Shown piece by piece: positions 15,379 through 59,768 of a DNA stretch of 64,000 nt. Below the pieces are notes generated by a model. The model had not been told where the DNA came from. It made no database searches and saw only the letters and a program-made list of their open reading frames with translations. This stretch comes from an uncultured Flavobacteriales bacterium (GTDB taxonomy: Bacteria > Bacteroidota > Bacteroidia > Flavobacteriales > Flavobacteriaceae). Every line of letters starts with the position of its first letter. The stretch's first letter is position 1. Location: positions 62,001-126,000 of the forward strand of contig CAJWBA010000001.1 in assembly GCA_913020155.1 (NCBI GenBank). The letters are read 5' to 3'. The position numbers and the translations under genes are program-made.

Positions 15379-15400
15379 AAATCTTTTTCAAACGCATTAT

Positions 15401-15429
15401 AAAAATCGCTCTTTGGAGCGATTTTTTTT
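15401..15429 (+). terminator. Rho-independent terminator after tsf
   Basis: A perfect 11-base stem (15401-15411 with 15416-15426; core ATCGCTC/GAGCGAT) encloses a TTTG loop and runs into eight T. It closes the ribosomal protein operon. Confidence 0.92.
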
Positions 15430-15443
15430 GGAATACTTCGTCT

Positions 15444-15583
15444 TGATCTCGATACAATTCATCTTCGATTAGTCACTCGATCAGAGGACGGGTAAATCAA
15501 ATCAGGTAGAGTGTTTCCCTTGGGAAGTAAATACATACTGTCACTTCGAGTGTTTCCCGAAGGGAAGTGTATCGAGAAGTGAC
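15444..15583 (+). repeat. Palindromic intergenic repeat cluster (flavobacterial REP-like)
   Basis: At 15540-15583 outer arms GTCACTTC and GAAGTGAC enclose an inner TTCCC-GAA-GGGAA palindrome. A second inner unit, GTTTCCC-TT-GGGAA, is at 15513-15526, and a degenerate unit containing CTCGATACAATTC and AGTCACTCGA spans 15448-15480. Nested, TCGA-bearing palindromes of this kind recur between genes in flavobacteria. It is non-coding and lies between the tsf terminator and the polA promoter. Confidence 0.65.
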
Positions 15584-15617
15584 TAGGTGTACTCGGAATG
15601 AATCTTTCAATCTACAT

Positions 15618-15649
15618 TTTGAATTCCAAATGCATTTTGTATCTTTTTG
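15618..15649 (+). promoter_or_regulatory. Putative polA promoter
   Basis: TTTG at 15618-15621, an 18-base spacer, then TATCTTTTTG from 15640, which is a TAnnTTTG box with extra T. It lies 18 bases before the polA ATG. Confidence 0.5.
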
Positions 15650-15667
15650 GTGTAAAACAACTTTGTA

Positions 15668-18505
15668 ATGCCATCACCAAAACGCCTTTTTTTACTGGAT
15701 GCTTTTGCCTTAATTTTTAGAGGTTACTACGCTTTCATCAAAAACCCAAGAATCAATTCCACAGGGATGGATACCTCAGCAATATTTGGGTTTATGAACT
15801 CTTTATTGGATGTCATCAAAAGAGAGAAGCCCGATCATCTGGCAGTTTGCTTCGACAAAGGAGGATCTGACTTTAGAACTAAACTTTATGGAGAATACAA
15901 AGCTAATCGAGGTGAAACCCCCGAAGCAATTAAAATTGCTGTTCCTTACATTCAAAAAATTCTAAGGGGAATGAATATCCCCGTGATTGAAAAAGCAGGT
16001 TATGAAGCCGATGACATCATAGGAACATTGGCGAAACAAGCTGAAAAAGATGGGTTTCAAACTTTTATGGTAACCCCAGACAAAGACTTTGCACAATTGG
16101 TTTCAGAAAACATTTTCATGTACCGCCCCGCAAGAATGGGTAATGGTATTGAAATCTGGGGAATTCAGGAAATACAAGCCAAATTTGAAATTGAACGCCC
16201 CGAACAAGTTGTAGATTATTTGGGAATGATGGGAGATAGCGCTGACAATATCCCAGGACTACCCGGAGTGGGAGATAAAACGGCTAAAAGATTCTTGAAA
16301 GAGTACGGGAGTATGGAGGCTCTTCTGGAAAACACTCATGAGTTGAAAGGGAAAATGAAAGAGAAAATTGAAGCCAATAAAGAATTGGGAATGCTCTCCA
16401 AGGAATTGGCGAAAATTCTATTGGATGTTCCTGTAACTTTTGAGGCAGATTCTTACAAATTGAGTGATCCTGATTATGGCTCCGTTCAAACCGTTTTTGA
16501 AGAATTGGAGTTCCGAAGGATGCAAGAAACCCTTCAACGGATTTTTAGTGATACTCCAAAAACAGAAATTGAACCTGCTAAAAAGAATGAAGAATATAAA
16601 CTTACCACCCCTACGAATAAAGGTCAAATGGATTTGTTTGCAACCGCAGGTTCAGGATCTGTTTCAAATACAACCGAAAATTTTTCATCCAAAAGCAACT
16701 TGTACAATACCGATCACGCCTATCAGTGTGTAGATTCTGAACTGGCACTAAAACTGTTCCTAGAAAAACTGACTACCCAAAGTAGTGTTTGTTTTGATAC
16801 CGAAACTACAAGTTTAAATGCACTAAAAGCCGAATTGGTTGGAATCGCTTTCAGTTGGGGAAATAACAAAGGATACTACCTTCCCTTTCCCGAAGATCAA
16901 AATGCTGCCCATGAACTGATTGAAAAAATTCGCCCTTTCTTTGAAAATGCAACTATTGAAAAAATTGGTCATAATCTCAAATACGCCCTCAAAGTTTTAT
17001 CCAATTACGATCTTGAAGTAAAAGGTCCTCTTTATGATACATTAATTGCCCATTACATCATCAATCCAGATCGTCGTCATGCACTGGATATTCTGGCGTC
17101 AAATTACCTAAACTACGAACCACAACCCATTTCAAAATTGATTGGTAAAAAAGGTAAAAACCAAGGTTCTATGCGTGACATTCCCCTGAAAGATCAAACA
17201 CAATATGCCGTTGAAGATGCCGATATTACTTGGCAATTAAAACAACATTTTGAAAAGGAACTGACCGCCGCAAATAACCAAGAGCTGTTTAGGGCTGTTG
17301 AACTGCCGCTTGTTCCCGTTCTTACTTATATGGAGAAAGAAGGGATCAACCTTAACGTTCCTTTTTTAAATGAATTCGCAATTGAACTTAAACAGGATAG
17401 TTCCCGTCTTCAATCCAAAATTTTTGAACAGGCCGGTGAGGAGTTCAATTTGGCATCGCCCAAACAATTGGGTCCCATTTTATTTAATAAACTCAAATTG
17501 ATTGACAAACCCAAAAAAACCAAAACAGGACAATATTCAACAGCAGAGGATGTCTTATCTTATCTTGCTAAGGATCATGAAATAGTAGCTGATATTCTCA
17601 ATTGGCGATCTACTCAAAAACTTTTAAGTACTTATGTAAATGCCCTACCCGAAGAAGTTCATCCCAAAACGGGACGGATTCATACGGTTTATAACCAAGC
17701 TGTTGCAGCAACGGGTCGTTTGAGTAGTAATGCTCCCAATTTGCAAAATATTCCCATAAGAACAGAACGAGGACAGCAAATACGAAAAGCATTTATTCCC
17801 CGAAATTCCAATCATGTACTGCTTGCTGCAGATTACTCTCAAATAGAGTTGCGAATTATTGCCGCACTAAGCAAAGACCCTTCTATGGTTTCTGCTTTTC
17901 AGAACAATGAAGATATTCATGCAACTACAGCTGCCAAAGTATTTAATGTTCCTCTGGAAAAGGTTACTCGCTCACAAAGGAGTAATGCAAAAACTGTCAA
18001 TTTTGGTATTATTTATGGCGTATCTGCTTTTGGTTTAAGTCAGCAAACCGATTTAAGTCGTTCAGAGTCCAAAGAGTTGATCAATACCTATTATGAGAAC
18101 TATCCTCAACTTAAAGCATACATGAGTTCTCAGGTAGATTTTGCTCGAGAAAATGGGTATGTTTCAACAGTTTTGGGACGCAGACGTTACCTTAAAGACA
18201 TTCTTTCTCAAAATGCAATTGTACGTGGTGGTGCAGAGCGAAATGCTGTCAACGCCCCTATTCAAGGAAGTGCTGCCGATATTATTAAACTAGCGATGAT
18301 CAAAATTCATAATCGAATGAAAAATGGAGATTGGGAAGCAAAAATGCTCTTACAAGTACATGATGAATTGGTGTTTGATGTTCCAAAAAATGAAATTCAC
18401 TCACTCAGTACAATGGTAAAAGAAGAAATGGAAAATGCTTTTAAATTAGAAGTGCCTTTGGTGGTTGATATTGGGGTAGGAAATAATTGGCTGGAAGCAC
18501 ATTGA
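15668..18505 (+). CDS. polA: DNA polymerase I
   Basis: Repair and Okazaki-fragment processing polymerase of 945 residues. It has an N-terminal 5'-3' exonuclease (about 1-290; ITGTLAKQ-type helix, GDSADNIPGLPGVGDKTA), a middle 3'-5' exonuclease domain (about 345-545) that keeps the DTET motif near residue 377, so proofreading is probably active, and a polymerase domain with motif A (DYSQIELRI, near 721), motif B (RSNAKTVNFGIIYG, near 770) and motif C (QVHDELVF, near 897). It is monocistronic, and palindromic repeat remnants lie on both sides. Confidence 0.97.
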   Translation: MPSPKRLFLLDAFALIFRGYYAFIKNPRINSTGMDTSAIFGFMNSLLDVIKREKPDHLAVCFDKGGSDFRTKLYGEYKANRGETPEAIKIAVPYIQKILRGMNIPVIEKAGYEADDIIGTLAKQAEKDGFQTFMVTPDKDFAQLVSENIFMYRPARMGNGIEIWGIQEIQAKFEIERPEQVVDYLGMMGDSADNIPGLPGVGDKTAKRFLKEYGSMEALLENTHELKGKMKEKIEANKELGMLSKELAKILLDVPVTFEADSYKLSDPDYGSVQTVFEELEFRRMQETLQRIFSDTPKTEIEPAKKNEEYKLTTPTNKGQMDLFATAGSGSVSNTTENFSSKSNLYNTDHAYQCVDSELALKLFLEKLTTQSSVCFDTETTSLNALKAELVGIAFSWGNNKGYYLPFPEDQNAAHELIEKIRPFFENATIEKIGHNLKYALKVLSNYDLEVKGPLYDTLIAHYIINPDRRHALDILASNYLNYEPQPISKLIGKKGKNQGSMRDIPLKDQTQYAVEDADITWQLKQHFEKELTAANNQELFRAVELPLVPVLTYMEKEGINLNVPFLNEFAIELKQDSSRLQSKIFEQAGEEFNLASPKQLGPILFNKLKLIDKPKKTKTGQYSTAEDVLSYLAKDHEIVADILNWRSTQKLLSTYVNALPEEVHPKTGRIHTVYNQAVAATGRLSSNAPNLQNIPIRTERGQQIRKAFIPRNSNHVLLAADYSQIELRIIAALSKDPSMVSAFQNNEDIHATTAAKVFNVPLEKVTRSQRSNAKTVNFGIIYGVSAFGLSQQTDLSRSESKELINTYYENYPQLKAYMSSQVDFARENGYVSTVLGRRRYLKDILSQNAIVRGGAERNAVNAPIQGSAADIIKLAMIKIHNRMKNGDWEAKMLLQVHDELVFDVPKNEIHSLSTMVKEEMENAFKLEVPLVVDIGVGNNWLEAH

Positions 18506-45740: not shown

Positions 45741-46358
45741 TTAAAACTCAATCGAAGATAAATTGAAAAAGTGATTTCTATTGATTAGAGTGCTTTTTTC
45801 AATTTCATTAATCCATAAATCATTTGCATATAAAATAATGGATTTATTATTTCTAAGATTTTGTTCATTATTATTTATAAAATTATTTAAAGTTTTTACT
45901 CCAAATGGGTTAAACATAAATAAAAGTTGGGGTTTTTCTTCGAGTCTTTTTTCATTCGCATTAGCCACTTCAAAATTTATTTTTTTACCGATATTATTTT
46001 TGATATAATTGGCTTCTCTAATCAATTTTTTATTAAAATCAAATCCACAATAGGATTTTAAATTATATCTAAGTGCAAAGTATATTGTAGAAATGCCAAG
46101 CCCACAACCCACATCACATAAATGATAGTTCTCTAATTTTATATTATCGGGAATCAACTCCATTAAACGGTCAATATTTTTCAACCAAACGGTCATATAA
46201 GAAGTTGAATCACTATCTATATCTTTATTGTTTACAGCTTCATATTGTTTAATATCTAGATCTAATTTTAACGAATTTAAAAATATTTGATTAAAATTTT
46301 CTTCCTCCTCGCGAATTAAACCAGAAATTAAATTATTATGTTTAAATTGATATTGCAT
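45741..46358 (-). CDS. Class I SAM-dependent methyltransferase, small
   Basis: A 205-residue methyltransferase with the SAM-binding segment LCDVGCGLGISTIYFALRYN (near 85-104) and LLFMFNPFG, where NPFG sits at the catalytic NPPF/DPPY-like position. Strongly AT-rich. It is separated by 83 bases from the KpsS-like gene downstream and by 36 from the FemAB-like gene upstream, an unusually loose spacing in this locus. N- or O-methylation of the glycan or its acyl group is likely; the substrate is unknown. Confidence 0.75.
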   Translation of the reverse strand: MQYQFKHNNLISGLIREEEENFNQIFLNSLKLDLDIKQYEAVNNKDIDSDSTSYMTVWLKNIDRLMELIPDNIKLENYHLCDVGCGLGISTIYFALRYNLKSYCGFDFNKKLIREANYIKNNIGKKINFEVANANEKRLEEKPQLLFMFNPFGVKTLNNFINNNEQNLRNNKSIILYANDLWINEIEKSTLINRNHFFNLSSIEF

Positions 46359-46394
46359 AGATATTTATATTAAAATTAATTTATAAAATGTGTC

Positions 46395-47348
46395 TTATTT
46401 AAAGACCCCTGTTTGGAAAAATTCATCATTTTCTTTTTCAATTAAAATTGATTTTTTTAGTTTATTGGTGAATCCAGATTTAAACAAGAAAATCTTATCA
46501 ACTTTAGTTTTAGGTTTATTAAGATCTCTTCCAAAGCCAATATAAAAATCATGAATGCCTAATGATTTCAATTTAAGAATTGATTCCCAAATAATTATAT
46601 GGGCCGAAGGCAATTTAGATTGTAATTCCCTTTGTGAAACTGAAATTGAATATTGGGCGGTTTTATTGTTTAAATTAAAAAAAGAATAGCTTGTTAGATT
46701 TTTTTCATAATACGCTTCGCATACGATTAGCTTACGGTCGTTAAACATTCTCTCTTGATACTCCCATGTTAAATTGCTTCGTGTAATTCTCCCACTAACT
46801 TCATAATGCAACTGTTTATAAAGGTCAATGTTGAAATTCTCTGGAAATTTAATTTCAAATTTATCATGATTTTTTTTTATTAGGTTACGATACGAACTTC
46901 TTAAGTTACCCCAAAGTTCGCTCTTACTCTTTGTGATATCTGCCCAAAGTTCAAAAATTGGATTCAGCAAAAAACTCTCTCTTAAGTAAGAATAAAACAC
47001 ATCCGATTTTTCAGAATGGCAATATTCTTTCAAACACATTAATTCTTCTGAATTATTTAAATCTATTAAAACTTGTTTAGATATATTTTTTAAAATATTT
47101 AAATTATAAGTTGTTTTGTCAGAAAAAAAAATTTGGCTGAAGTAAGTTTTAGCTTCAGATTTATATATTTTTACTAAGGCTATTTCATCTAAGTGCTTTA
47201 TATAATAACTCTCGTTTATTGATTTATAATATTCTTGCTCATACCTAATAATGTCATAACTAAATAGTAAATTATCAGTATAGTTTTTACTTAAAAATAA
47301 ATCCCATTCAGTTTTTTCGAAATCTTTAAAAAAATATTTTTTTATCAT
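46395..47348 (-). CDS. FemAB-like GNAT acyltransferase
   Basis: A 317-residue protein resembling the FemAB/GNAT-fold group. A central SELWGNLRSSYRNLIKKNHD (near 143-162) matches the (R)SxxRNxIRKA-type block of these proteins, followed by ITRSNLTWEYQERMF and SAHIIIWESILKLKSLG with FYIGFGRDLN near the end. Family members add amino acids or acyl groups, sometimes from aminoacyl-tRNA. Next to WbqC and a methyltransferase, it may decorate an amino sugar. Very AT-rich. Function is inferred. Confidence 0.72.
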   Translation of the reverse strand: MIKKYFFKDFEKTEWDLFLSKNYTDNLLFSYDIIRYEQEYYKSINESYYIKHLDEIALVKIYKSEAKTYFSQIFFSDKTTYNLNILKNISKQVLIDLNNSEELMCLKEYCHSEKSDVFYSYLRESFLLNPIFELWADITKSKSELWGNLRSSYRNLIKKNHDKFEIKFPENFNIDLYKQLHYEVSGRITRSNLTWEYQERMFNDRKLIVCEAYYEKNLTSYSFFNLNNKTAQYSISVSQRELQSKLPSAHIIIWESILKLKSLGIHDFYIGFGRDLNKPKTKVDKIFLFKSGFTNKLKKSILIEKENDEFFQTGVFK

Positions 47349-47376
47349 TTTTTATATATTATTAAATAAAATCCGC

Positions 47377-48102
47377 TTAATAGTTAAGGTGATTTCTCCC
47401 TGATCTTATAATTTTTAGGCAGTTATCTTTTCCAACATTAAACAATAAATCAATGATTGATAAATGAGAAATAAAATTATCACCAATCTGATTGTATATG
47501 GGATGATTGTAATCATTATATACTAAATTGATATTTGAATTTAAAAATGCACCATATTTATTATTTTTCTCTATGTATTCGAAAGAACCCTTGGGAGAAA
47601 TATAAAACTCTGCATTTAATTCGCTACAAATCTGAACCAAACGATTATCTTTCGTACCCTGTTTAGATTTTAAAGAACTGCTTTTTTTAAACTTGGTTTG
47701 AATACCAATTCGCTCGCTTATTTTAGAAATAATGTTTTCATTAAAATCAGATAGCATAAAATTAGACTTACTAATTATAAGATTTTCGATGAAATCTATA
47801 TTTTCTTTGAAAAAGTCTGATTTGGAATAAAATTGTCTGATTGATTTAATTTGTTTGTTCCTCCATTTAAAATCTTTGCTAATAAGGGTATTATTGTAAA
47901 AGCATTCTTTGAATCCATTTATTTTTAATAATGAAACTGTTAAATATAAAAACTCATGATTTGATTTGATTTTATTTCTGACTCCCCATGATTGTTTTTC
48001 AATTTGTACATCATCATAAAAAATAAAATTATCGACTTGATCAATTAAATCAAAATAACCGAGCCAAGGGAAAAAAGTTGGTTGTGATATAGCACAAATC
48101 AT
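47377..48102 (-). CDS. WbqC-family protein
   Basis: A 241-residue member of the WbqC family, found in O-antigen and nonulosonate loci. The opening MICAISQPTFFPWLGYFDLI and DDVQIEKQSWGVRNKIK are diagnostic. The family has no firmly established activity; roles in attaching glycine or other acyl groups have been suggested from context. It overlaps the pseI stop by 4 bases, closing the chain of overlapping genes that starts at pseB. Confidence 0.88.
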   Translation of the reverse strand: MICAISQPTFFPWLGYFDLIDQVDNFIFYDDVQIEKQSWGVRNKIKSNHEFLYLTVSLLKINGFKECFYNNTLISKDFKWRNKQIKSIRQFYSKSDFFKENIDFIENLIISKSNFMLSDFNENIISKISERIGIQTKFKKSSSLKSKQGTKDNRLVQICSELNAEFYISPKGSFEYIEKNNKYGAFLNSNINLVYNDYNHPIYNQIGDNFISHLSIIDLLFNVGKDNCLKIIRSGRNHLNY

Positions 48103-49118
48103 TTATTAATTGATTTTAAAACCTTTTCATTAATAGGGGTGTGTTTTGAAATATCGAATGGTACTATCTCACCAATAAGTTTCTCAAAATACTTAGGATG
48201 AATTCCTAAATTAGGCCTCATTACACTTAAGTTTTTTTCTGAAAAAACTTCTCCTTTTTTAATGTTATTAATTGCAAAAATACTTCTTAAATTTTGCCTA
48301 GCATCAAAAAGAGTTTTTTCGTCATGAACCTTAAGTTTGATTGCTTTTTCCGTAGCCCTTATGTCTTGTACTAATGATTCAAAAGCTTTAGGAATCAAAC
48401 TAAAAAATGAATCCGGACTATCAATCTTATTATTTAGTTTGAAATGCTTTTCAATAACTTGAGCTCCTAATGAAGTTGCAATAATAGATGTCAAATTTGA
48501 TGTTGTATGATCCGATAATCCAACCTTAACTTGATAATTATCTCTAATTTTAGTCATGTTATTTAAATTGGCATCTTCAACCTTAGATGGATATTTTGCA
48601 GTACATTGTAAAACGGTAATATCTTTATTTTTATTCTTCCTTGCAGTATCTATAAATAATCTAATGTCATTTTCAAGAGCAGCTCCGGTACTAAAAATAA
48701 CAGGTTTTTTTAATTTTGTTACTAGTTCAATCAAAGGGATATGGTTAACTTCGGAACTGGCAATTTTGTAAATCGGATTATTTAGATTCTCTAAAAACTT
48801 TGCTGATTTCAAATCAAATGGTGATGAAAAACATAACAAATCTTGCTTATAACACTCCTCAAATATAAATTCATGCCATTCCCATGGCAAATGAATTTTT
48901 TTATACAATTCAAAGTGATTATATCCTTTCCATATGCCTTTTTTTATAACATATCTTTCATCTTTTGTGTTTAAAGTCATTTGATTTAAATCAAATGTTT
49001 GAATTTTAAAGGCATCTGCACCTGAATTTTTTGCGGCTTTTATTGTATCAATAATTACTGCCTTATTATTCATGTGATTTGCGGACAATTCAGCTACTAT
49101 AAATACTTTTTTATCCAT
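48099..49118 (-). CDS. pseI: Pseudaminic acid synthase (NeuB family, PseI type)
   Basis: PEP-dependent condensing enzyme making a nonulosonic acid from a 6-deoxy diacetamido hexose. It has 339 residues: a TIM-barrel NeuB domain (FIVAELSANHMNN start, ADAFKIQTFDLNQMTLN, YKIASSEVNHIPLIE, GLSDHTTSN, VIEKHFKLNN) and a C-terminal antifreeze-like SAF domain (IFAINNIKKGEVFSEKNL, RPNLGIHPKYFEKLIG). The SEVNH and RPNLGIHPKYFE segments fit PseI better than NeuB or LegI. It overlaps both neighbours. Confidence 0.9.
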   Translation of the reverse strand: MDKKVFIVAELSANHMNNKAVIIDTIKAAKNSGADAFKIQTFDLNQMTLNTKDERYVIKKGIWKGYNHFELYKKIHLPWEWHEFIFEECYKQDLLCFSSPFDLKSAKFLENLNNPIYKIASSEVNHIPLIELVTKLKKPVIFSTGAALENDIRLFIDTARKNKNKDITVLQCTAKYPSKVEDANLNNMTKIRDNYQVKVGLSDHTTSNLTSIIATSLGAQVIEKHFKLNNKIDSPDSFFSLIPKAFESLVQDIRATEKAIKLKVHDEKTLFDARQNLRSIFAINNIKKGEVFSEKNLSVMRPNLGIHPKYFEKLIGEIVPFDISKHTPINEKVLKSINK

Positions 49119-49656
49119 CGATATCTAAATTATTTTTAGAGAGTAGATTATTATTATTTAATAAATCAAGTTCGTAAGTTAATTTTTCAATTTTTTTATC
49201 AAATAATATATCAGTACGGGAGTCTACTCTATTAAATCCAACCTTATCATGCAAAAATATTGATCCTTTATTAAAGGAACCAATATTTGCTGTCAATTTA
49301 TTAATCCCCTTCACAACTGATTTTATCATAATTAACTTATAAGATCTTTTAGCATAACCCTTACCAGTAAAAGATTTATCTCCGATATAAATCCACGATT
49401 CAGCAGTTTTTTTTATATCATCTATGTGTTTAAGCCCTATATTCCCAATATGTATACCATCAACATTAATTGTGTATATTTTCTGAGTTATGTCTTTGGT
49501 ATAAAGATCATACCAAATTATGTGTTGATCCCAAGAAATATCCCTTTCAAAAAGAAAATCTTTTTGAAAGTCCTTATTGTTGACCCAATTGAATGTTTTT
49601 AAAAGATTTTCCTCACTAAAATCTTTTAAATCAATACTTTTTTTTTGGTGTAGCAT
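49111..49656 (-). CDS. pseH: GNAT N-acetyltransferase, PseH-like
   Basis: A 181-residue GNAT acetyltransferase, predicted to acetylate N4 of UDP-4-amino-4,6-dideoxy-N-acetyl-altrosamine after PseC. FNWVNNKDFQKDFLFERDIS resembles the PseH/RimJ-type N-terminal part, and the acetyl-CoA loop GDKSFTGKGYAKRSYKL lies near 93-109. The C-terminal 25 residues are Asn/Leu-rich. It overlaps the upstream methyltransferase by 26 bases and pseI by 8. Because other groups could replace acetyl, the donor is open. Confidence 0.8.
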   Translation of the reverse strand: MLHQKKSIDLKDFSEENLLKTFNWVNNKDFQKDFLFERDISWDQHIIWYDLYTKDITQKIYTINVDGIHIGNIGLKHIDDIKKTAESWIYIGDKSFTGKGYAKRSYKLIMIKSVVKGINKLTANIGSFNKGSIFLHDKVGFNRVDSRTDILFDKKIEKLTYELDLLNNNNLLSKNNLDIDG

Positions 49657-50530
49657 AAACAGTAATTTGTCTTCCTAATTCTAGCTCAGCAAGCTTTTCA
49701 TAAAATTCATATAGCTTTTCTTTATGTCCGTTTTTAATCAGTCGCTCTTCAAATTTTTTTCTTTTTTCATGACACTTAATACCTGTTCCACTATTTCCAA
49801 CATATACCTCTCCAAAAAGCAAAAACATTTCCATTGGAAAAGAAGATTCTTTTACTTTAATTTCAAAACCGGTTTTTTCTAATAAATCAACTAAGGATTT
49901 GACTGTAAAATAATTTATATGACCTGGAGGATTAATCCACCATTCTTTTAAATCAAGCTCGGTATTTGCAACTTCTTGAAATGTGTTAAATTCATTTGGA
50001 ACATCTATTACCAAAACTCCTTCTTCTTCAAGTAAATTATGATTAATCTGCTTTAATACGTTGGCAGGATTTCTCAAGTGTTCCAGAACATTAATCAAAA
50101 GCACTATGTCTTGTTTTGAATTATTTTCATAGGTTTTATCTCCTTCTATATCACCTACAAAAACATTATCAATCCCTTTCTGCTTAGCATATTTAACTGC
50201 CTCACTAGATGGCTCCATACCTGAACAAATTAACCCCTTACTTTTATAAAATATTAGTGCTTGAGCAAAACCAAAACCTATATCATAAACTTTTTTGTTA
50301 TTAAGATTCCCCAATATAGAATTACAAACATCATAAATTCTATTCCATCGACTGTCAAAAAAATATTTATCTTTTGTTTGTATCTCTAAAGAGGAGTCAT
50401 TGATCTGTGATTCATTTCGTTCGGTATAAAAGTCCTCTTTATAAAAATTTTCAACCTCTTCTTTGGAGGGTTTTGGATCTACTCTTAAATATCCATACTC
50501 TGGATCAGCAATTAGTTGATATTTTTTCAT
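49631..50530 (-). CDS. Class I SAM-dependent methyltransferase within the pse genes
   Basis: A 299-residue methyltransferase of the SAM class I fold with VYDIGFGFAQALIFYKSKGL near 90, GMEPSSEAVKYAKQKG and LLINVLEHLRNPANVL. The N-terminus (MKKYQLIADPEYGYLRVDPKP) lacks zinc-binding Cys residues of C-methyltransferases. It lies between the dioxygenase and the PseH-like gene with overlaps of 4 and 26 bases, so it probably acts on the same sugar product. The acceptor is unknown. Confidence 0.82.
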   Translation of the reverse strand: MKKYQLIADPEYGYLRVDPKPSKEEVENFYKEDFYTERNESQINDSSLEIQTKDKYFFDSRWNRIYDVCNSILGNLNNKKVYDIGFGFAQALIFYKSKGLICSGMEPSSEAVKYAKQKGIDNVFVGDIEGDKTYENNSKQDIVLLINVLEHLRNPANVLKQINHNLLEEEGVLVIDVPNEFNTFQEVANTELDLKEWWINPPGHINYFTVKSLVDLLEKTGFEIKVKESSFPMEMFLLFGEVYVGNSGTGIKCHEKRKKFEERLIKNGHKEKLYEFYEKLAELELGRQITVYATPKKKY

Positions 50531-51351
50531 GGTAATTTATATTTATTGATTGAAGTTTCAAAACCTGGTGATCTCCTGGTTAATCTGGTAAACTCGTCAA
50601 GAGGCGGTGCCGAATTAAAGCCCAAAAGCGCTTTTTGAGCATCAGTTAGGTTATCATAAATTTCTGGAGGAGTGTTGGCCAAAAGGTCAAATGAAGGCTT
50701 AATAAACCATCTGCCATATCCTAGAACAAGTCCCCATCTAGTTTTTGTTGATTTATTTGTTCCTCCTCCATGCCATAGCGATCCGTCAAAAACCAAAGCA
50801 GACCCTCTTTTACCTTGAATAATAATTTCGTCGTTATAAGTCTTATTATCTTCTGCATAAGAATTAAACTTATGACTTCCAGGAACAATTCTTGTTGCTC
50901 CATTTTCGATAGAAAAATCCTCTAACATCCATAAAACAACAATTATTAATGGGTAACTTCCTCCAGGTAGATTGCTGTCTAAGTGAAGCTGCTGTTTGTT
51001 CCCATTAATTTGTGGTGACCTAGCAGAAATATTTAACAAGTTATAAGGTTCTGAGTTTTTATAGGATCCTGATTTGAGTAAAATATCAAGAATTTTTATA
51101 ATTGTACTATTCTCAAAAAGGTTAAACCATTTTAAATTTTTATTATGGAGGTTATAAACCACTTTTTCCCTTGATTTATCACTTAAAGAAGAAGATGATA
51201 AAGAATTTTTATTTGCATAATATTTTGAGAATTTTTCATTGTCTTTTTCAAGTAAGTCTACATACTGATCACATTCCTCTGGACTAATCAAATTCTCAAT
51301 AATTGAATATCCCTCAGACTTAATTTTATTAACATGATTATCTATATTCAT
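50527..51351 (-). CDS. Phytanoyl-CoA dioxygenase (PhyH) family protein
   Basis: Fe(II)/2-oxoglutarate-dependent oxygenase of 274 residues. The metal triad is visible: LHLDSN (His-x-Asp, near 123) and distal His in LWHGGGTN (near 192), with the 2-oxoglutarate Arg in TRWGLVLGY. It should hydroxylate or desaturate a small substrate. It is co-translated with PseG-like and methyltransferase genes (4-base overlaps), which suggests hydroxylation of the sugar or its acyl group, possibly before methylation. This is inference. Confidence 0.85.
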   Translation of the reverse strand: MNIDNHVNKIKSEGYSIIENLISPEECDQYVDLLEKDNEKFSKYYANKNSLSSSSLSDKSREKVVYNLHNKNLKWFNLFENSTIIKILDILLKSGSYKNSEPYNLLNISARSPQINGNKQQLHLDSNLPGGSYPLIIVVLWMLEDFSIENGATRIVPGSHKFNSYAEDNKTYNDEIIIQGKRGSALVFDGSLWHGGGTNKSTKTRWGLVLGYGRWFIKPSFDLLANTPPEIYDNLTDAQKALLGFNSAPPLDEFTRLTRRSPGFETSINKYKLP

Positions 51352-52274
51352 ATTTCACTTTTTATTTTGTTAAGACTATTTTTTTTAAAAAATTGATTTT
51401 GTGTTCTAATAACTTTTCTTGAGTTTTTCATGACAGAATCGAAGTCAAGACCTTCAAAATTATCCCACAAACCAACATAATTACAGAGGTTTAATTTTTC
51501 GAATTTCTTTGCTACTTTTATTTGTCCTTCATTCAAACAGCCAATAACAGAATTCCTGCCTACCTTAAACACTTCATATGAAATATTCCCTGGCGTAATT
51601 AAACACAATTCACTTAGAGATATTAAATTAAAAATTTGTTTAGCAGATATGTTGTTAAAAACATCAGAATTTATTGACTTGATTTTTTCTTTGTAAACAA
51701 TATCTATCATATTAGGTTCATATCCTTTTGAAACCAAAGATTCGTGTATTCTAATGATTATTTTTTTTATGTCATCAGAATTTCCCAGACAAATAAAAAC
51801 TCTTCCATTGCTAATGACAGGTTTATTATAGAATTCATTTCTAATGATCGCATATTCTGTACCTAAAAAAAATTTAGTTTTTTTCTTCGATTTATAATCA
51901 TTTTTATTGGCCCATGGCAAATGATTTATTACAATATCTGTTTCGGGGATTTTGTTATGAATGTCTGCGATAAAAAAAGATTTTCTACAATTTCCAATTG
52001 CTTTATTTATGTCATCTAAATTTAATGAGTAAAAGTCCATAATAACCGTTGTATTTTTTAAATCAAAATTTAATATTTCATTAGTCTGATTTATAAAATG
52101 AATTTTATTTTCAAAAACAAAATCATTTACCAAGTTATTTGTTTTGCTGTGATTCATTAAAATTGGCACAACATCCTTAATAATATTCAAGTTTTTGCAT
52201 AAGGTATATGATCTATATAAATGACCAAAACCAAAGCTCCCACCGAACTCCGTTATTAAGTAAATTTTAGACAT
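51348..52274 (-). CDS. pseG: PseG-like UDP-sugar hydrolase
   Basis: A 308-residue GT-B fold protein resembling PseG, which releases UDP from UDP-2,4-diacetamido-2,4,6-trideoxy-altrose. The N-terminal GGSFGFGHLYRSYTL carries the expected catalytic His (His18), with VIMDFYSLN and the C-terminal LITPGNISYEVFKVG nucleotide-binding block. It is divergent from Campylobacter-type PseG but is the only candidate for this step in the locus. It overlaps its neighbours by 8 and 4 bases. Confidence 0.8.
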   Translation of the reverse strand: MSKIYLITEFGGSFGFGHLYRSYTLCKNLNIIKDVVPILMNHSKTNNLVNDFVFENKIHFINQTNEILNFDLKNTTVIMDFYSLNLDDINKAIGNCRKSFFIADIHNKIPETDIVINHLPWANKNDYKSKKKTKFFLGTEYAIIRNEFYNKPVISNGRVFICLGNSDDIKKIIIRIHESLVSKGYEPNMIDIVYKEKIKSINSDVFNNISAKQIFNLISLSELCLITPGNISYEVFKVGRNSVIGCLNEGQIKVAKKFEKLNLCNYVGLWDNFEGLDFDSVMKNSRKVIRTQNQFFKKNSLNKIKSEI

Positions 52275-53592
52275 ATTTTCTGAAAACTGGTTTAATTACT
52301 TCATTTTCATCAATCTCGAAGTGATCTCTTTTAACCATTTCACTGAAAGTATGTAAGCTTTTTTCAAATCCATTTAAGAAGTATTCAATCTCTGAATCTC
52401 CATGACTAAAAGAAGGCACTATTGCTCCTTGAAAAAGTATTTTATTAGAAATCATTTCTTTTAAAAAAACTGTTTTCAATTTGAGGCTATGATGACTTTT
52501 ATAATTGTTAAAAAACCATATTGGTGTCCAAGTTGTATTTGAAACAGTAATTAGTTTTTGTAAGTTATATTTTGCTATGAGAGTTCTGGAAGAATTAATT
52601 ATACGGTTTCCTTTCTCATTAATTTTCTCAATAACATTGTTTTCTGTGTAGAAATCTATCGTGGATATTAAAGCTCTTAGACTATGTGTTTCTCCTCCAT
52701 GGGTTGTTGAAGTAAGAAAAACTTTTTCTGCCCCTATGGTCAATATAGATCCTAAGTTCATTATTTCTCTTTTACCAACTAAAGAACTACATGAGAACCC
52801 ATTCGCAATTCCTTTTCCATAAGTTATAAGGTCTGGCTTTAAGTCATATTTTTTGACTGCTCCTGGAAGTTCAATTTTAAATCCGCTAACCATTTCATCA
52901 AGAATAAAAACAATGTTATTTTCATTACATATTTTTATAACTTTTTTTACATACTCAAAAGGTGATAAAGAACAATTACAGTTACCACATGAAAATTTTT
53001 GTGGCTCCATTATTATACACGCTAATTGATCTTTTTCCTTTAAAATTAATTCCTTGAACGAGTTAATATCACAACTTTTAAATTTAATCGAAAGGGAATC
53101 GTAAACTTTTGGAATACCCTTACTACATTCTTTTGAAGAAATAAACCAGTCATCAAATGAAAAGAAGGGGTGATCTTCAGGAAATGCAATTTTATTTTTG
53201 CCAGTATATGCTCTTGCTAATTTTATAGCGGCAGTTGTTGAATTACTCCCATTTTTGCTGAATTTTATCATATAATCTTCATCAAATAACGACAAAAACT
53301 TTTCAGCTGCTTCAAGTTCAATATAGGATGGTCTTTGAAAATTAATACCGCTCTCCATCTCTTTCACAACTTTATTTACAATTGGTTTAAATGCGTGCCC
53401 TAACGTTACCGACCCAAGTCCCATGCTACAATCTAAATACTTATTACCTTCTATATCCCAAATCCAAGCTCCTTTTCCTTTTTTTATCCCTCTAGGTGCA
53501 TTATCCGGAAACTGATCATCACCTTTTGAGTATGTGTGAGATCCACCAGGTATAGAATTATGTAACAATTCGCTAAATTTGCTATCCTTCAT
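52267..53592 (-). CDS. Class III aminotransferase (GSA aminomutase-like)
   Basis: PLP enzyme of 441 residues of the glutamate-1-semialdehyde aminomutase branch: IPGGSHTYSKGDDQFPDNAP opening, GNKYLDCSMGLGSVTLGH, FSKNGSNSTTAAIKLARAYTG, PLP Lys in LITYGKGIANGFS near residue 260, and THGGETHSLRAL. A heme-pathway role is unlikely, because it sits between spsF-like and pseG-like genes with overlaps of 4 and 8 bases. It may aminate an aldehyde on a side chain or sugar; the substrate is unknown. A Cys cluster (SCGNCNCS, near 200) is unusual. Confidence 0.87.
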   Translation of the reverse strand: MKDSKFSELLHNSIPGGSHTYSKGDDQFPDNAPRGIKKGKGAWIWDIEGNKYLDCSMGLGSVTLGHAFKPIVNKVVKEMESGINFQRPSYIELEAAEKFLSLFDEDYMIKFSKNGSNSTTAAIKLARAYTGKNKIAFPEDHPFFSFDDWFISSKECSKGIPKVYDSLSIKFKSCDINSFKELILKEKDQLACIIMEPQKFSCGNCNCSLSPFEYVKKVIKICNENNIVFILDEMVSGFKIELPGAVKKYDLKPDLITYGKGIANGFSCSSLVGKREIMNLGSILTIGAEKVFLTSTTHGGETHSLRALISTIDFYTENNVIEKINEKGNRIINSSRTLIAKYNLQKLITVSNTTWTPIWFFNNYKSHHSLKLKTVFLKEMISNKILFQGAIVPSFSHGDSEIEYFLNGFEKSLHTFSEMVKRDHFEIDENEVIKPVFRKYV

Positions 53593-54326
53593 TGTTTCTT
53601 TATGTTTCTAGTTGTTTTTTGATTAGAAAATTCGTCTGGATTTTCAATAATATAATTAGCATATGTTTGCCACGTTTGATTTGTGCCTAGTTTCAAAATC
53701 AAATTATATAAACATTCAAAGTCATCAATATAATCCAGTGTCATTCTTATATTTCCATAATTTTTATGAGAGATAATGTCTTCAGAAGAAAACATATCTC
53801 GTTGAAAAAAATTTGAATTATCAATAATAAATTTTGTGACATGTTCTCTGTCTTCTTTTTCAAGAGATTTCTGCCATGCCTTTTCAAGTGTTTTAAATCT
53901 AAAAACCTCTATATCTTGTCCATCTGGAAAATCATGACTTAAAACATTTGAGGTGTAATCTTTTTTATTGTCAATTGCAGTAGCTATAATTTCATCCATC
54001 AAGACAGGATCAAGTAATGGACAATCTGAAGTTACACGAACAATATAATCTGGATTTCGGTCTTTTGCAGCATTATAGAATCGCCCCAAAACATCATCGG
54101 TATCTCCCTGATAATACTCTACATGAACTGAGTTGGCAATCTTTATAATTTGCTCCACTCCATCTTCGTATGTTGTAGCCACAACGAGATTATCACCATA
54201 ACGAGATTTTTTAAGGCGCTCTAAATGAATTTGAAGTAACGATTTTCTTTCAATTTTTTTTAAAATCTTTGAAGGCAAGCGTGTGCTTCCAATTCGTGCT
54301 TGTGTTATTATAATTACATTTACCAA
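53589..54326 (-). CDS. SpsF-like cytidylyltransferase, candidate CMP-nonulosonate synthase
   Basis: A 245-residue nucleotidyltransferase of the SpsF/COG1861 group. It has ITQARIGSTRLPSKIL at 7-22, VVATTYED, EYYQGDTDDVLGRFYNA, VRVTSDCPLLDP and RMTLDYIDDFE. In nonulosonic-acid loci this type takes the place of PseF/NeuA and activates the sugar with CTP. No other cytidylyltransferase is in the window, so it is the best candidate. It overlaps the aldo/keto reductase gene by 7 bases and the aminotransferase gene by 4. Confidence 0.87.
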   Translation of the reverse strand: MVNVIIITQARIGSTRLPSKILKKIERKSLLQIHLERLKKSRYGDNLVVATTYEDGVEQIIKIANSVHVEYYQGDTDDVLGRFYNAAKDRNPDYIVRVTSDCPLLDPVLMDEIIATAIDNKKDYTSNVLSHDFPDGQDIEVFRFKTLEKAWQKSLEKEDREHVTKFIIDNSNFFQRDMFSSEDIISHKNYGNIRMTLDYIDDFECLYNLILKLGTNQTWQTYANYIIENPDEFSNQKTTRNIKKQ

Positions 54327-55177
54327 AGTGAGGGGTTTAAAAGGTTGTCATTTTGAATAGAAATCGTATTGATTTCATCTGATGTTTCCCTTGAGATTGT
54401 TTTGGTCAAAGCACTCAAATTCGTTCTTAATTGACCCAACGAATCTACACCAATCAAAACGTTATCAATAAAATCCATAGATAACGCATAACTAATTGCT
54501 AATTCTTCCATTGTTAATGATTCAGACTCTGCAATTTTTTTTAACTTTTCGAGGGGTTCTCTAAGAAGTTCCAAATAAGGTGGTAATTTATTAGTGTCTT
54601 TAAAAAAAAGTCCCTGCAAAAAAACAGAACGTGTATCTATTATTTTTCCTTTAGATTTAATATCTGCATATCTTTCTCCTCTCTTCAGCTCATTGTCTAA
54701 AAGATTAAAAGGGGTTTGTATTCTATCAATGACGAGATCTGAACTAATCACACCGACTTCTTCATTAGTATAAACAGAGACTCCTAGTTTATTGAAGAAT
54801 TTCCCTTTATTTTTTTGGCAAAATAATGGGAGTTGAGATTTGAATTTTTCATATAACCCAAAGGAATGCAGCATCAATACTTCTACTTTATCAACTTTCA
54901 ATTTTTGGAGGCTTTCATGAAGTTGTTTTTCCAGTGAAATCTTTGAAGAATTCACTTTAGTTATGATCTCAAACTTTTTATTAGGATTAGAAACTAAATA
55001 ATCTCCAATAATTTCTTCTGAATCTCCATAACCAGAAGCAGTGTCTAAAGTCATAATACCTTTGGAATAAGCAAAATCTAAAATAGGATGAACTTCTTGA
55101 ATGGGTGTTTTCCCACGAGTATTATTGATCCCATAGTTTGAGCCAAACTGTACAGTTCCAAGAATGATGTTAGACAT
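54320..55177 (-). CDS. Aldo/keto reductase in the pse operon
   Basis: NAD(P)H-dependent (alpha/beta)8-barrel reductase of 285 residues. The catalytic set is readable: TLDTASGYGDSEEIIG (Asp and Tyr), IITKV (Lys), LMLHSFG (His). GTVQFGSNYGINNTRG at the start is typical of the branch found with SpsF-like genes in glycosylation islands. It could reduce a keto-sugar or a side-chain carbonyl. It overlaps pseC by 8 bases and the spsF-like gene by 7. Confidence 0.87.
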   Translation of the reverse strand: MSNIILGTVQFGSNYGINNTRGKTPIQEVHPILDFAYSKGIMTLDTASGYGDSEEIIGDYLVSNPNKKFEIITKVNSSKISLEKQLHESLQKLKVDKVEVLMLHSFGLYEKFKSQLPLFCQKNKGKFFNKLGVSVYTNEEVGVISSDLVIDRIQTPFNLLDNELKRGERYADIKSKGKIIDTRSVFLQGLFFKDTNKLPPYLELLREPLEKLKKIAESESLTMEELAISYALSMDFIDNVLIGVDSLGQLRTNLSALTKTISRETSDEINTISIQNDNLLNPSLW

Positions 55178-56330
55178 GATTTTGCTTGTAAAATTGGACG
55201 ATAGTTTCGATTACGTAGTCTTGGTCGTTACTTGAAAGTGAAGGATACATTGGGATACTTATACAACGCTTATAATATTTTTCTGCATGTTTAAAAACTT
55301 GCTCGCCATATAGCTCAACATAATAAGGCTGTTTATGAACTGGGATATAATGAATCTGAGCACTAATACCATTTCCTTTTAGATAGTCATAAAGGGCTTT
55401 ACGTTCGTCCACCTGAATCACAAACAAATGAAAAGCATGGCCCTGATGAAGACTACTTTTGGGAATTGTAACGGGAAGGCCTGAAAATGCTTCTATATAT
55501 TTTTTAGCTATTTCTCTTCTAATTTTCAACCCTTCCTCTGCGCGATCTAATTGAGATATTCCCAGAGCACAAAGTAAGTCGGGCATTCTGTAATTATACC
55601 CCAAACTTTGGATTTCATAATACCAACCTCCATCATTTTTAGTTAATTCATTTGGATCCTTTGTGATTCCATGAGAACGCAATAAAAGTAACTTTTCGTA
55701 AATATATTGATCATTGGTGGTTATCATTCCTCCTTCTCCACAAGCAATATGTTTAACAGGGTGAAACGAAAAGATAGCCGCATCTGCAAAACTACCTCCT
55801 CCACATTTTTGAACTCCATTGTTACTATCTCTAAAAAAGCCTCCTGGCGCATGGCAAGAATCTTCTAATATCCACAAGCCATATTTATCCGCTAATTTTC
55901 TGAAAGACTCCATATCAACCGCATAACCCGCGAAATCAACAGGAATTATTCCTTGATAAGTACCTCTTGGAGCTGACTCCAATTTTTCTCTAACTTTGGA
56001 AATATCTAAACATAGTGTATCTGGATTAATATCACAAAGTTCAACTTCTCCCCCACAGTAACGAATACAATTTGCAGATGCAGCAAATGTTATGGGTGAA
56101 GTAATAACTTTACTTTTTTGATTTACTCCCAGTGCTAATGCTGAAAGATGAAGCGCAGCTGTACCATTTGAAACTGCAACTGCATAATTGGAACCTACAT
56201 ATTGAGCAAATTTTTCCTCAAACTCCTTTACCCTGGGTCCTTGAGTCAAAAAATCCTCTTGCAACACAGAAACAACAGCCTCAATGTCCTGTTCTGATAT
56301 ATGCTGTTTTCCGTAGGGTATTGGTTTCAT
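55170..56330 (-). CDS. pseC: UDP-4-amino-4,6-dideoxy-N-acetyl-altrosamine transaminase
   Basis: PLP aminotransferase of the DegT family, 386 residues, second step of pseudaminic acid synthesis. MKPIPYGKQHISEQDIEAVV, SNGTAALHLSALALGV, ITFAASANCIRYCGGEVELCDI and the PLP Lys in SFHPVKHIACGEGG (near 192) match PseC. It shares one base with the pseB stop and overlaps the aldo/keto reductase gene by 8. PseC rather than PglE is favoured by FAASANCIRYCGG and by the adjacent pseB. Confidence 0.94.
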   Translation of the reverse strand: MKPIPYGKQHISEQDIEAVVSVLQEDFLTQGPRVKEFEEKFAQYVGSNYAVAVSNGTAALHLSALALGVNQKSKVITSPITFAASANCIRYCGGEVELCDINPDTLCLDISKVREKLESAPRGTYQGIIPVDFAGYAVDMESFRKLADKYGLWILEDSCHAPGGFFRDSNNGVQKCGGGSFADAAIFSFHPVKHIACGEGGMITTNDQYIYEKLLLLRSHGITKDPNELTKNDGGWYYEIQSLGYNYRMPDLLCALGISQLDRAEEGLKIRREIAKKYIEAFSGLPVTIPKSSLHQGHAFHLFVIQVDERKALYDYLKGNGISAQIHYIPVHKQPYYVELYGEQVFKHAEKYYKRCISIPMYPSLSSNDQDYVIETIVQFYKQNHV

Positions 56331-57343
56331 TAGATCAATTTAAAATTAGGATCAACATTTCTTTTAATTAAAGATCTAAGTGAAGGAACTGATAACCATT
56401 CCGTATTGTCTGCAGAATTGTATGAAAAATTATCTTCTACCTTTTGTGCTGAAAAATGAGCAATAAATTCATTCAAATTAAATATTGGATGCTGTGGGAG
56501 TATTACAAAATATTTCCCTAAATCATATGAAGTAAAGGAATCTGATTTTGTAAGCATCTCTTCATGAATTTTTTCACCAGGTCGAATTCCAATTATTTTA
56601 TGCTCGCAATCCGGTGCTATGGCTTCAACGATATCTGTTATTTTGTATGAAGGAATTTTTGGTACAAAAATTTCCCCTCCCCAAGCATTCTCCAATGCAT
56701 GCAAAACCATATCTACACCTTCGGCTAAAGAGATATTGAAACGAGTCATTTTAGGGTCTGTAATAGGCAATATTCCTGAATTTCTTTTATCCAAGAAAAA
56801 TGGAATTACAGATCCATTGGATCCCATTACGTTCCCGTAGCGTACTACAGAAAAATTGATGTTCTTTCCCCCGCGGATATTATTTGCTGCAATAAAAAGT
56901 TTGTCAGATGTCAGTTTTGAAGCTCCATAAAGATTAATAGGTGCCGCTGCTTTATCTGTTGATAAGGCTACCACTTTTTGAACACTAGTCTCCAAACATG
57001 CATTGATTAGGTTATCTGCTCCCAAAACATTTGTTTTAATACACTCCATAGGATTGTATTCTGCAATATGAACGTGCTTCATAGCTGCAGTGTGGATGAC
57101 GTAGTCGATTCCATTTAAGGCGCGTAAAACCCTTTTAAAATCCCTTATATCTCCTATAAAATAACGTAACATTTTATATTTGGAATCTGGAAATTCTTGA
57201 GCCATCTGAAATTGCTTTTGCTCGTCTCTAGAAAAAATAACAACCCTTTTTACGGATGGGTGTTTTTTAAGAATACGACGAACTAACTCTTTCCCTAAAG
57301 ATCCTGTACCCCCTGTAATTAAAATTGATTTATTTTCTAGCAT
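56330..57343 (-). CDS. pseB: UDP-GlcNAc 4,6-dehydratase (inverting), PseB
   Basis: Soluble SDR of 337 residues that dehydrates and C5-epimerises UDP-GlcNAc, opening the pseudaminic acid pathway. It has MLENKSILITGGTGSLGKELVRRI, AAMKHVHIAEYNPME, LSTDKAAAPINLYGASKL with Tyr-x3-Lys intact (in contrast to the Met form of the pglF homologue here), and RYGNVMGSNGSVIPFF. It is first in a chain of overlapping genes through WbqC. No clear promoter is seen in the 38 bases before it. Confidence 0.94.
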   Translation of the reverse strand: MLENKSILITGGTGSLGKELVRRILKKHPSVKRVVIFSRDEQKQFQMAQEFPDSKYKMLRYFIGDIRDFKRVLRALNGIDYVIHTAAMKHVHIAEYNPMECIKTNVLGADNLINACLETSVQKVVALSTDKAAAPINLYGASKLTSDKLFIAANNIRGGKNINFSVVRYGNVMGSNGSVIPFFLDKRNSGILPITDPKMTRFNISLAEGVDMVLHALENAWGGEIFVPKIPSYKITDIVEAIAPDCEHKIIGIRPGEKIHEEMLTKSDSFTSYDLGKYFVILPQHPIFNLNEFIAHFSAQKVEDNFSYNSADNTEWLSVPSLRSLIKRNVDPNFKLI

Positions 57344-59255: not shown

Positions 59256-59768
59256 TTATCTGCTTTCATACAATATAATACTATCTTGATTAGGGTTGTA
59301 TTTTGTTGCTAAATAAAAACTGACTTTGCGTTCTATTACGCTTTCTATTTTTTCTTCAAGAGCTTGAATGTACTCTGTATTTAATTTACTCCCTATCAAC
59401 ATCACTTCAATATTCCCCGAGTCTAAGCCTTTTGCATAATCACCAACCAAAAGAATTTGATTGACAGGACCCATACGCTCCAAAACTCGTTCTATAATTT
59501 CTTCAAGTCCCAAATGTTTATAAACAACTTTTTGAAGGATTTCAAACAAGGGATGATTCGTGTTGGCTTTATAAGCAACCTTATTTTGATCTTTAAATTT
59601 TTCTAGATAACCAGCCTCTGAAAGATGATTCAGCTCTTTACGAATGGAATTTGAAGACTCCTTGAATTCTGAAGCTAATCCATTCAAATACCCGCTATTC
59701 GCTTGATTAATAAAAAATTTTATCAGCAAGCGAAGGCGGGTTTTGGATGTAATCAGTTTATTAAGCAC
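59256..59768 (-). CDS. Winged-helix regulator with pseudo-nucleotidyltransferase domain
   Basis: A 170-residue protein starting at GTG (LNKLITSKTRLRLLIKFF). Residues 1-70 form a winged helix (LASEFKESSNSIRKELNHLSE is the helix-turn-helix, AYKANTNHPLFE the wing end). Residues 100-165 resemble a minimal nucleotidyltransferase fold (ILLVGDYAKGLDSGNIEVMLIG), but the catalytic GS...DxD reads GD...NIE, so activity is unlikely. Such proteins are widespread in Bacteroidota glycan loci. It probably regulates this locus and itself through a palindrome on its promoter. Confidence 0.85.
   Translation of the reverse strand: MLNKLITSKTRLRLLIKFFINQANSGYLNGLASEFKESSNSIRKELNHLSEAGYLEKFKDQNKVAYKANTNHPLFEILQKVVYKHLGLEEIIERVLERMGPVNQILLVGDYAKGLDSGNIEVMLIGSKLNTEYIQALEEKIESVIERKVSFYLATKYNPNQDSIILYESR

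Follow-up and report, generated by a model that had tools for sequence, protein, structure and literature searches.

A pseudaminic acid locus of an uncultured Flavobacteriales bacterium that may produce an 8-amino nonulosonic acid

What sugar is made by a pseudaminic acid (Pse) locus that carries, besides the usual biosynthetic genes, an aldo/keto reductase (AKR), a class III aminotransferase, a PhyH-family dioxygenase and a methyltransferase? The locus in question occupies positions 45741 to 57343 of a 64,000-nucleotide stretch of DNA (hereafter the window) from an uncultured Flavobacteriales bacterium (assembly GCA_913020155.1, contig CAJWBA010000001.1, positions 62,001 to 126,000). As the initial annotation had proposed, the product is likely to be a modified nonulosonic acid, the subfamilies of all four additional enzymes being found with pse or nonulosonate genes in nearly all loci seen; its statement that no product has been assigned to this gene set likewise agrees with the accessible parts of the literature covered. 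We posit, with a probability of about 0.55, that the locus makes a CMP-activated 8-amino-8-deoxy-Pse, i.e. a 5,7,8-triamino nonulosonic acid with an amino group in place of the C8 hydroxyl, and that this sugar is then hydroxylated and methylated. The core of the locus comprises eleven minus-strand open reading frames (ORFs), in the following order:

56330..57343, minus strand: PseB, inverting UDP-GlcNAc 4,6-dehydratase (TIGR03589, 495 bits, passing the cut-off of 408)
55170..56330, minus strand: PseC, C4 aminotransferase of the DegT family (TIGR03588, 478 bits, passing the cut-off of 424)
54320..55177, minus strand: AKR of the subfamily found in pse loci, proposed to interconvert the C8 alcohol and ketone (PF00248, 105 bits)
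53589..54326, minus strand: SpsF-type cytidylyltransferase, proposed CMP-nonulosonate synthetase (CTP_transf_3, PF02348, 95 bits)
52267..53592, minus strand: class III aminotransferase of subfamily A, proposed C8 aminotransferase (PF00202, 129 bits)
51348..52274, minus strand: PseG-like UDP-sugar hydrolase (TIGR03590, 79 bits, below the cut-off of 154; homologous, with a fitting neighbourhood)
50527..51351, minus strand: PhyH-family Fe(II)/2-oxoglutarate dioxygenase, proposed hydroxylase (PF05721, 84.5 bits)
49631..50530, minus strand: S-adenosylmethionine-dependent methyltransferase, proposed to O-methylate the new hydroxyl (PF13489, 60 bits)
49111..49656, minus strand: PseH-like GNAT N-acyltransferase (TIGR03585, 46 bits, below the cut-off of 93; homologous, with a fitting neighbourhood)
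48099..49118, minus strand: PseI, pseudaminic acid synthase (TIGR03586, 381 bits, passing the cut-off of 340)
47377..48102, minus strand: WbqC-like protein (PF08889, 205 bits)

The claimed run of ten consecutive overlapping junctions from pseB to wbqC is confirmed, with overlaps of 1, 8, 7, 4, 8, 4, 4, 26, 8 and 4 bases when the first possible start codon is used (TTG for the SpsF ORF). With identical gene-calling, 11 of the 34 same-strand junctions elsewhere in the window overlap, and at this rate, for which the window alone is the control, ten overlaps in a row have a chance of about 1e-5. The identities given to the AKR, the aminotransferase, PhyH and the methyltransferase stand, as their Pfam matches exceed the gathering scores. 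The claim of candidates for all six Pse steps stands in part: PseB, PseC and PseI exceed the curated cut-offs, whereas PseG and PseH fall below theirs, and the activator is of the SpsF rather than the PseF type. The PseF model (TIGR03584) gives this activator 19 bits against a cut-off of 206, and nowhere in the window's genome (1.70 Mb, 80% complete) does it exceed the cut-off, the best score being 34 bits.

We scanned genome contigs with the AKR as an anchor; loci are given as L-numbers, and all counts of AKR loci refer to the best 80 of 564 AKR relatives. Both 6-kb flanks are present in 63 of them, and 17 lack full 6-kb flanks. L036 and L110 (18,598 bases, identical AKR) are apparently the same contig. 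In the DNA covered, homologues of pseB, pseC or pseI accompany the AKR in 75 of the 80 loci, as do SpsF homologues in 75. The order pseB-pseC-AKR-SpsF-aminotransferase is found within 6 kb in 43 of the 58 loci that have an aminotransferase and no short-chain dehydrogenase (SDR), with a PseI homologue further along in 40 of these 43. The records are mostly from Bacteroidota, and AKR-SpsF-aminotransferase loci also occur in records labelled Spirochaetia (L120), Desulfogranum (L130), Nitrospirae (L131) and archaeon (L108). Thus, the earlier description of these enzymes as foreign is not upheld: the AKR and the aminotransferase belong regularly to a widespread type of pse locus, in which they take the same slots. 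Nor do the extra genes regularly occupy loci without pse genes. Beyond the 75 AKR loci, a NeuB/PseI homologue is no more than 4.2 kb away from each of the six other methyltransferase matches, and PhyH is found with pseB and pseI in three of its four loci, the fourth (L081) having the AKR, SpsF, the aminotransferase and a PseG-like gene. The GC content of the stretch from the aminotransferase to WbqC (0.26-0.32, versus 0.31-0.37 upstream) bears no clear foreign mark.

Further evidence comes from the partners of the AKR. A six-frame search within 6 kb recovered only an aminotransferase in 58 loci, only an SDR in 12, both in one (L122) and neither in nine; the corresponding figures for the 63 loci with both flanks are 49, 9, 1 and 4 (Fisher p 2.8e-7, a value that ignores kinship among loci). 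In the 58 aminotransferase loci the best SDR-profile match near the AKR reaches about 30 bits (30.1), and the best five of these weak matches all come from the pseB region, upstream of this gene; two stronger matches, in L112 and L129, are over 8 kb away from it. A quick tree of the AKR (86 rows), which leaves one SDR locus (L113) unlabelled, has 22 partner changes over five types (shuffled mean 37.6), including seven between aminotransferase and SDR, and the starred branches force at least four for the SDR. The window's AKR, with its subfamily A aminotransferase, is the sister of the AKR from L053, which is paired with subfamily B. This swapping of partners points to one shared site for the SDR and the aminotransferase. 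In the window itself, no gene between 47377 and 57343 has SDR as its best Pfam family.

A search anchored on the aminotransferase gave matches in 45 of 395 genomes of the phylum and 2 of 100 relatives, both counts including the window's genome, and we examined 20 of the 45 outside the window (the 12 best and eight weaker ones). An AKR was near in five, an SDR in 11 and neither in three, and one had no aminotransferase call. Eight of these loci (L045-L052) possess SpsF, the aminotransferase, an SDR and a NeuB-type synthase with no pseB or pseC within 6 kb, which is why the aminotransferase there probably acts without a PseB/PseC product. Seven of the eight (L045-L051) also contain a gene resembling Kdn-9-phosphate phosphatase, which in L047 scores 163 bits versus a cut-off of 180. 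These Kdn-like loci suggest an amino-Kdn, possibly on a lipid. In L047 the aminotransferase lies at about 8.5-9.8 kb and is followed by a gene of the fatty-acid-hydroxylase type.

The SDR-type pairing has a parallel shown experimentally. In Acinetobacter prophages, EpaA (CTP_transf_3 and Aldo_ket_red domains) and EpaB (an SDR) convert Pse5Ac7Ac to 8-epi-Pse5Ac7Ac, as established by nuclear magnetic resonance (NMR) of the complemented capsule, according to the accessible text (PMC12053666). The natural reading of this reaction is an oxidation at C8 followed by re-reduction. The window has the same two domains as two adjacent genes, its AKR sharing the Pfam domain of the C-terminal half of EpaA (PMC12053666, as accessible); it differs in that AKR and SpsF are fused in EpaA, that a class III aminotransferase rather than an SDR adjoins them in the window, and that the product of the prophage system is an epimer and not an amine. 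Similarly, the available text on Vibrio sp. B9-25K2 describes an SpsF-AKR protein followed by a dehydrogenase, and a PseAc2 isomer that differs in retention time and tandem mass spectrum (PMC7371886); this cluster resembles the window in having SpsF-AKR in a pse locus and differs by its dehydrogenase, as in EpaA/EpaB, and the isomer would fit, as predicted, a ketone at C8. The Shewanella KdnB/KdnA pair, which yields Kdo8N, offers a precedent for the other outcome, in that C8 of an ulosonic acid is oxidized and then transaminated, although on the eight-carbon Kdo and by other enzyme families.

Based on these parallels, we propose the following pathway. PseB, PseC, PseH, PseG and PseI would, by homology, build Pse by the usual route; the AKR would oxidize the C8 alcohol to a ketone, which the class III aminotransferase would aminate; and SpsF, judging from its slot and homology, would load the sugar onto CMP before or after the C8 steps. 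The AKR, SDR and aminotransferase would all share this one ketone: AKR with SDR would give the 8-epimer, and either of them with the aminotransferase the amine, a pyridoxal phosphate (PLP) enzyme in place of the SDR trapping the ketone as an amine. PhyH may then hydroxylate a C-H position, to be O-methylated by the product of the adjoining methyltransferase gene.

Conserved residues and structural relatives are consistent with this scheme. The AKR residues D45, Y50, K74 and H104, which we take to be the AKR tetrad, are kept in 86 of 86 aligned rows, and in the aminotransferase K260 (the PLP lysine, assigned by motif) and D232 are kept in 77 of 77. Among the PDB relatives of the AKR are DepB, which presumably acts in epimerization through a ketone, and a DON 3-epimerase chain; those of the aminotransferase include C-6' aminotransferases, which we take to act on a ketone derived from CH(OH)CH3. 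AlphaFold modelled the aminotransferase poorly (pLDDT 65, from nine sequences), and the model was set aside. A glutamate-1-semialdehyde aminomutase function was considered and rejected for the latter enzyme: NF004856 (464 versus 486 bits) and HemL TIGR00713 (186 versus 527 bits) remain below their cut-offs, and the context is that of nonulosonates. A gene with that very annotation is found together with PseG and a cytidylyltransferase in Legionella pneumophila serogroup 6, per the accessible text (PMC3694923).

PhyH, whose HxD...H pattern is visible by eye in all four aligned sequences, has no homologue at 1e-15 in 389 other genomes of the phylum, and was found in four loci: the window, L061, L081 (58% identity; a 6-kb contig without pseB, pseC or pseI) and L146. 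In all four it adjoins a methyltransferase of the window's family, in four different positions, and in three, L146 being the exception over the 15 kb covered, AKR-SpsF-aminotransferase is present. At 1e-25 the methyltransferase is found in 6 of 394 other genomes of the class, each time 0-4.2 kb from a NeuB/PseI homologue. Since the pair moves together, we suggest that the two enzymes may catalyze consecutive steps, a hydroxylation followed by an O-methylation. No PhyH relative was recovered in viral contigs; 99 plasmid records have a match, the 15 listed showing 25-29% identity.

Several fused versions of the enzymes were also observed. SpsF-aminotransferase fusions occur in ten loci, and an AKR-SpsF-aminotransferase fusion in L118. 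In the pse locus of the archaeon-labelled contig, PseC is fused to the AKR and SpsF to the aminotransferase (L108:9145-11235 and the preceding 733-aa ORF). SpsF has matches in 28 plasmid records, of which those of Pseudosulfitobacter and Maritalea were examined. The Pseudosulfitobacter plasmid has the order pseB-pseC-AKR-GNAT-hypothetical-(SpsF-aminotransferase fusion)-pseG-pseI. On the Maritalea plasmid (L154:2474-6045) an SDR, 34-41% identical to the SDRs of AKR loci, precedes an SpsF-AKR fusion of 915 aa near sialyltransferase and cytidylyltransferase genes. The C-terminal part of this fusion matches proteins annotated as sialidase family; among the matches listed (20 of 23), one other, from Marinovum (46%), has SpsF-AKR length, and in phages the match is to the C-terminal part only. 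The AKR itself has no match in phage records, and viral contigs have three distant AKRs (25-26% identity).

The locus type can be compared with two systems whose sugars have been studied. In Tannerella forsythia ATCC 43037 the accessible text lists pseB Tanf_01185, pseC 01190, 01195, pseF 01200, 01205, pseH 01225, pseG 01235 and pseI 01240, and states that no carbohydrate function was found for Tanf_01195 and Tanf_01205, which its authors set aside (PMC6120980). In the corresponding locus L107, pseC is followed by an AKR, an SpsF-type gene and a class III aminotransferase, which by order match 01195, 01200 and 01205, with pseG and pseI beyond, as in the window. The window's PseB, PseC, SpsF and AKR are respectively 60%, 56%, 45% and 37% identical to those of L107, the 45% being with the gene that by order is pseF Tanf_01200; T. 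forsythia differs in that its aminotransferase is of subfamily B (29% identity) and that FkbH is present, and neither a PhyH nor a methyltransferase like those of the window was found in L107. The T. forsythia residue, C14H25O9N3 with 361 Da, was assigned as Pse5Am7Gc and later as Pse5Am7Gra (PMC4030854, PMC6388019), and no modifying enzyme has been reliably identified according to the accessible part of the latter, a review. A triamino core with an acetyl and a glyceroyl group would have the same formula (361.149; CMP form 683.193 versus the reported 683.2). By computed formula, 8-amino-8-deoxy-Pse5Ac7Ac is likewise an isomer of Pse5Ac7Am, so that mass cannot separate the two. L107 encodes an FkbH protein (14730-16346, 278 bits), of a family that presumably makes glyceryl groups, as a candidate glyceroyl source, a gene called elusive in print.

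The Aeromonas group IA/IB flagellin glycosylation islands have the order pseB, pseC, reductase, pseF, class III aminotransferase, pseG, (pseH), pseI, and the accessible text states no function for the reductase and the aminotransferase (PMC7874193). The window matches this order (order, not sequence, was compared) and adds PhyH and the methyltransferase between pseG and pseH; the islands differ in having no PhyH among their listed genes, in being flagellar and in belonging to a gammaproteobacterium. As far as the sources are accessible, the sugar of A. caviae Sch3 is plain Pse (m/z 317.1; PMC9290775), that of A. piscicola AH-3, of group II, has 376 Da, and that of A. hydrophila AH-1 has 403 Da (PMC4691044). 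We infer that AH-1 is of group I, and hence has the AKR and the aminotransferase, and that Sch3 and AH-3 do not. For these nominal masses, an odd value indicates an odd number of nitrogens.

Four other explanations have to be weighed. Pse and legionaminic acid often bear hydroxy- or amino-acid N-acyl chains, and the AKR and aminotransferase could make such a side chain, to be loaded onto N5 or N7 by PseH or another transferase. The glyceroyl group of T. forsythia, from a locus with both PseH and the FkbH protein, is in keeping with this, yet FkbH already offers a source for that very group. Furthermore, the 11 fused proteins consist over the entire ORF of SpsF and the aminotransferase (once with the AKR), though no search was made for acyltransferase fusions; there is no acyltransferase among the scanned genes of the Kdn-like locus L047; and the AKR and SpsF, when paired with an SDR, epimerize C8. 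We therefore regard a side-chain function as unlikely, though as the most probable of the four. Slightly less probable is an amine placed elsewhere on the completed nonulosonic acid, at C4, C7, or C9 after PhyH action. It draws on the fact that C8 is placed solely by the EpaA/EpaB parallel and that class III enzymes vary in substrate. However, such a PhyH lies near the AKR in 2 of the 58 aminotransferase loci, making C9 hydroxylation no prerequisite, and the exchange with the SDR speaks for a single common site.

That the product is plain Pse5Ac7Ac, with the extra genes idle or acting elsewhere, would agree with the standard PseB, PseC and PseI, but appears very unlikely: the subfamilies of the four genes accompany nonulosonate genes in nearly all loci seen, the catalytic residues examined are conserved, and a single run of overlaps links the genes. 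The least probable explanation is that the class III aminotransferase works on the hexose before condensation, as a second PseC. Eight of the 58 aminotransferase loci, some on short contigs, have no PseC within 6 kb, L073 has PseB without PseC, and L103 and L116 lack a separate PseC, their slot being occupied by a DegT enzyme; against this, 50 of the 58 have both PseC and the aminotransferase, and the Kdn-like loci have neither PseB nor PseC nearby.

Several observations nevertheless count against an 8-amino product. All chemistry for this genome is inferred from genes, and the link to EpaA depends on domain make-up and on the Maritalea SpsF-AKR fusion with its SDR. NMR assigned the T. forsythia sugar as an acetamidino, glyceroyl Pse substituted at N5 and N7 (PMC4030854, as accessible), and the AsnB-like Tanf_01265 was proposed for the amidine by its authors (PMC6120980), although this enzyme could instead make the uronamide that is also in the T. 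forsythia glycan. For the 403-Da sugar of AH-1, the top formula given by its authors holds no nitrogen (PMC4691044, accessible text). The partner rule has exceptions too: L122 has both partners and nine of the 80 AKR loci neither, L033 combines the AKR and aminotransferase with a weak SDR (57 bits), and 3 of the 20 aminotransferase-anchored loci have neither redox gene. The partner types cluster on the AKR tree, and the Fisher p is therefore too small. Finally, the slot is filled by three aminotransferase subfamilies and, in two loci, by a DegT enzyme, so that the amine may not have the same position or stereochemistry in all loci. The DegT-type genes are L103:11601-12776 and L116:11598-12791, each with PseB and no separate PseC (a Pfam check of the assignment covered L103), and L103 has an RmlD-like gene nearby.

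Amidine synthesis of the WbuX type (TIGR03573), the family to which we take PseA to belong, was rejected for the window's genome: no homologue was found at E 0.001 in this 80% complete genome, nor in those of T. forsythia and Arcticimaribacter. WbuX is present in five other AKR-aminotransferase loci (L054, L068, L069, L078 and L093), because of which an amidine and the proposed amine may co-occur there. After it in these loci come genes of roughly 205 and 261 aa, whose sizes alone resemble those of HisH/HisF, with a small extra ORF between in two loci.

By AKR identity (73%), the nearest named relative at the locus is Candidatus Arcticimaribacter forsetii (L053). PseB (78%), PseC (79%) and SpsF (60%) are also similar, while the aminotransferase (28%) and PseI (44%) are far less so, PseH is 22% identical to a longer GNAT protein, and the L053 locus has no match for PseG, PhyH, the methyltransferase or WbqC. 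Because identity is high upstream and low or lacking from the aminotransferase to WbqC, this modifying half looks to have been exchanged as a block. Beyond it, outside the overlap chain (gaps of 28 and 36), lie two further genes, whose L053 counterparts stand in swapped order:

46395..47348, minus strand: protein of no assigned family (no Pfam match; 28% identity with a gene in L053)
45741..46358, minus strand: second methyltransferase-like protein (60% identity with a gene in L053)

Upstream of the locus, 59256-59768 encodes a 170-aa protein, 84% identical in L053, which by eye resembles a winged-helix and nucleotidyltransferase-like regulator. WbqC-like genes recur in L094, L112, L131, L146 and L148. 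An ABC transporter just upstream of the locus and hexapeptide and Epimerase_2 genes downstream make a surface glycan the likely destination of the sugar.

The partner rule and the 8-amino prediction are new. In the open-licence literature, no title among the matches listed names an 8-amino or triamino nonulosonic acid; the accessible texts gave only 8-amino-8-deoxy-Kdo, in a reference title of PMC9912281, and unrelated uses (PMC7281560, PMC11257890, PMC9912281). More tentatively, and with the odds somewhat against it, we envisage an unrecognized class of triamino nonulosonic acids, both 8-amino-8-deoxy-Pse and Kdn-like, across Bacteroidota and beyond, made via a swappable set of AKR, SDR and aminotransferase, in which each pair would act through one C8 ketone; some reported acetamidino-Pse sugars, such as that of T. 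forsythia, might then be 8-amino isomers. The proposal supplies a testable function for two genes of many pse loci, which are unassigned in Aeromonas and set aside in Tannerella. A free or acylated C8 amine would alter the charge and recognition of this sialic-acid mimic, and gene content alone would predict, strain by strain, the 8-epimer, the 8-amine or plain Pse.

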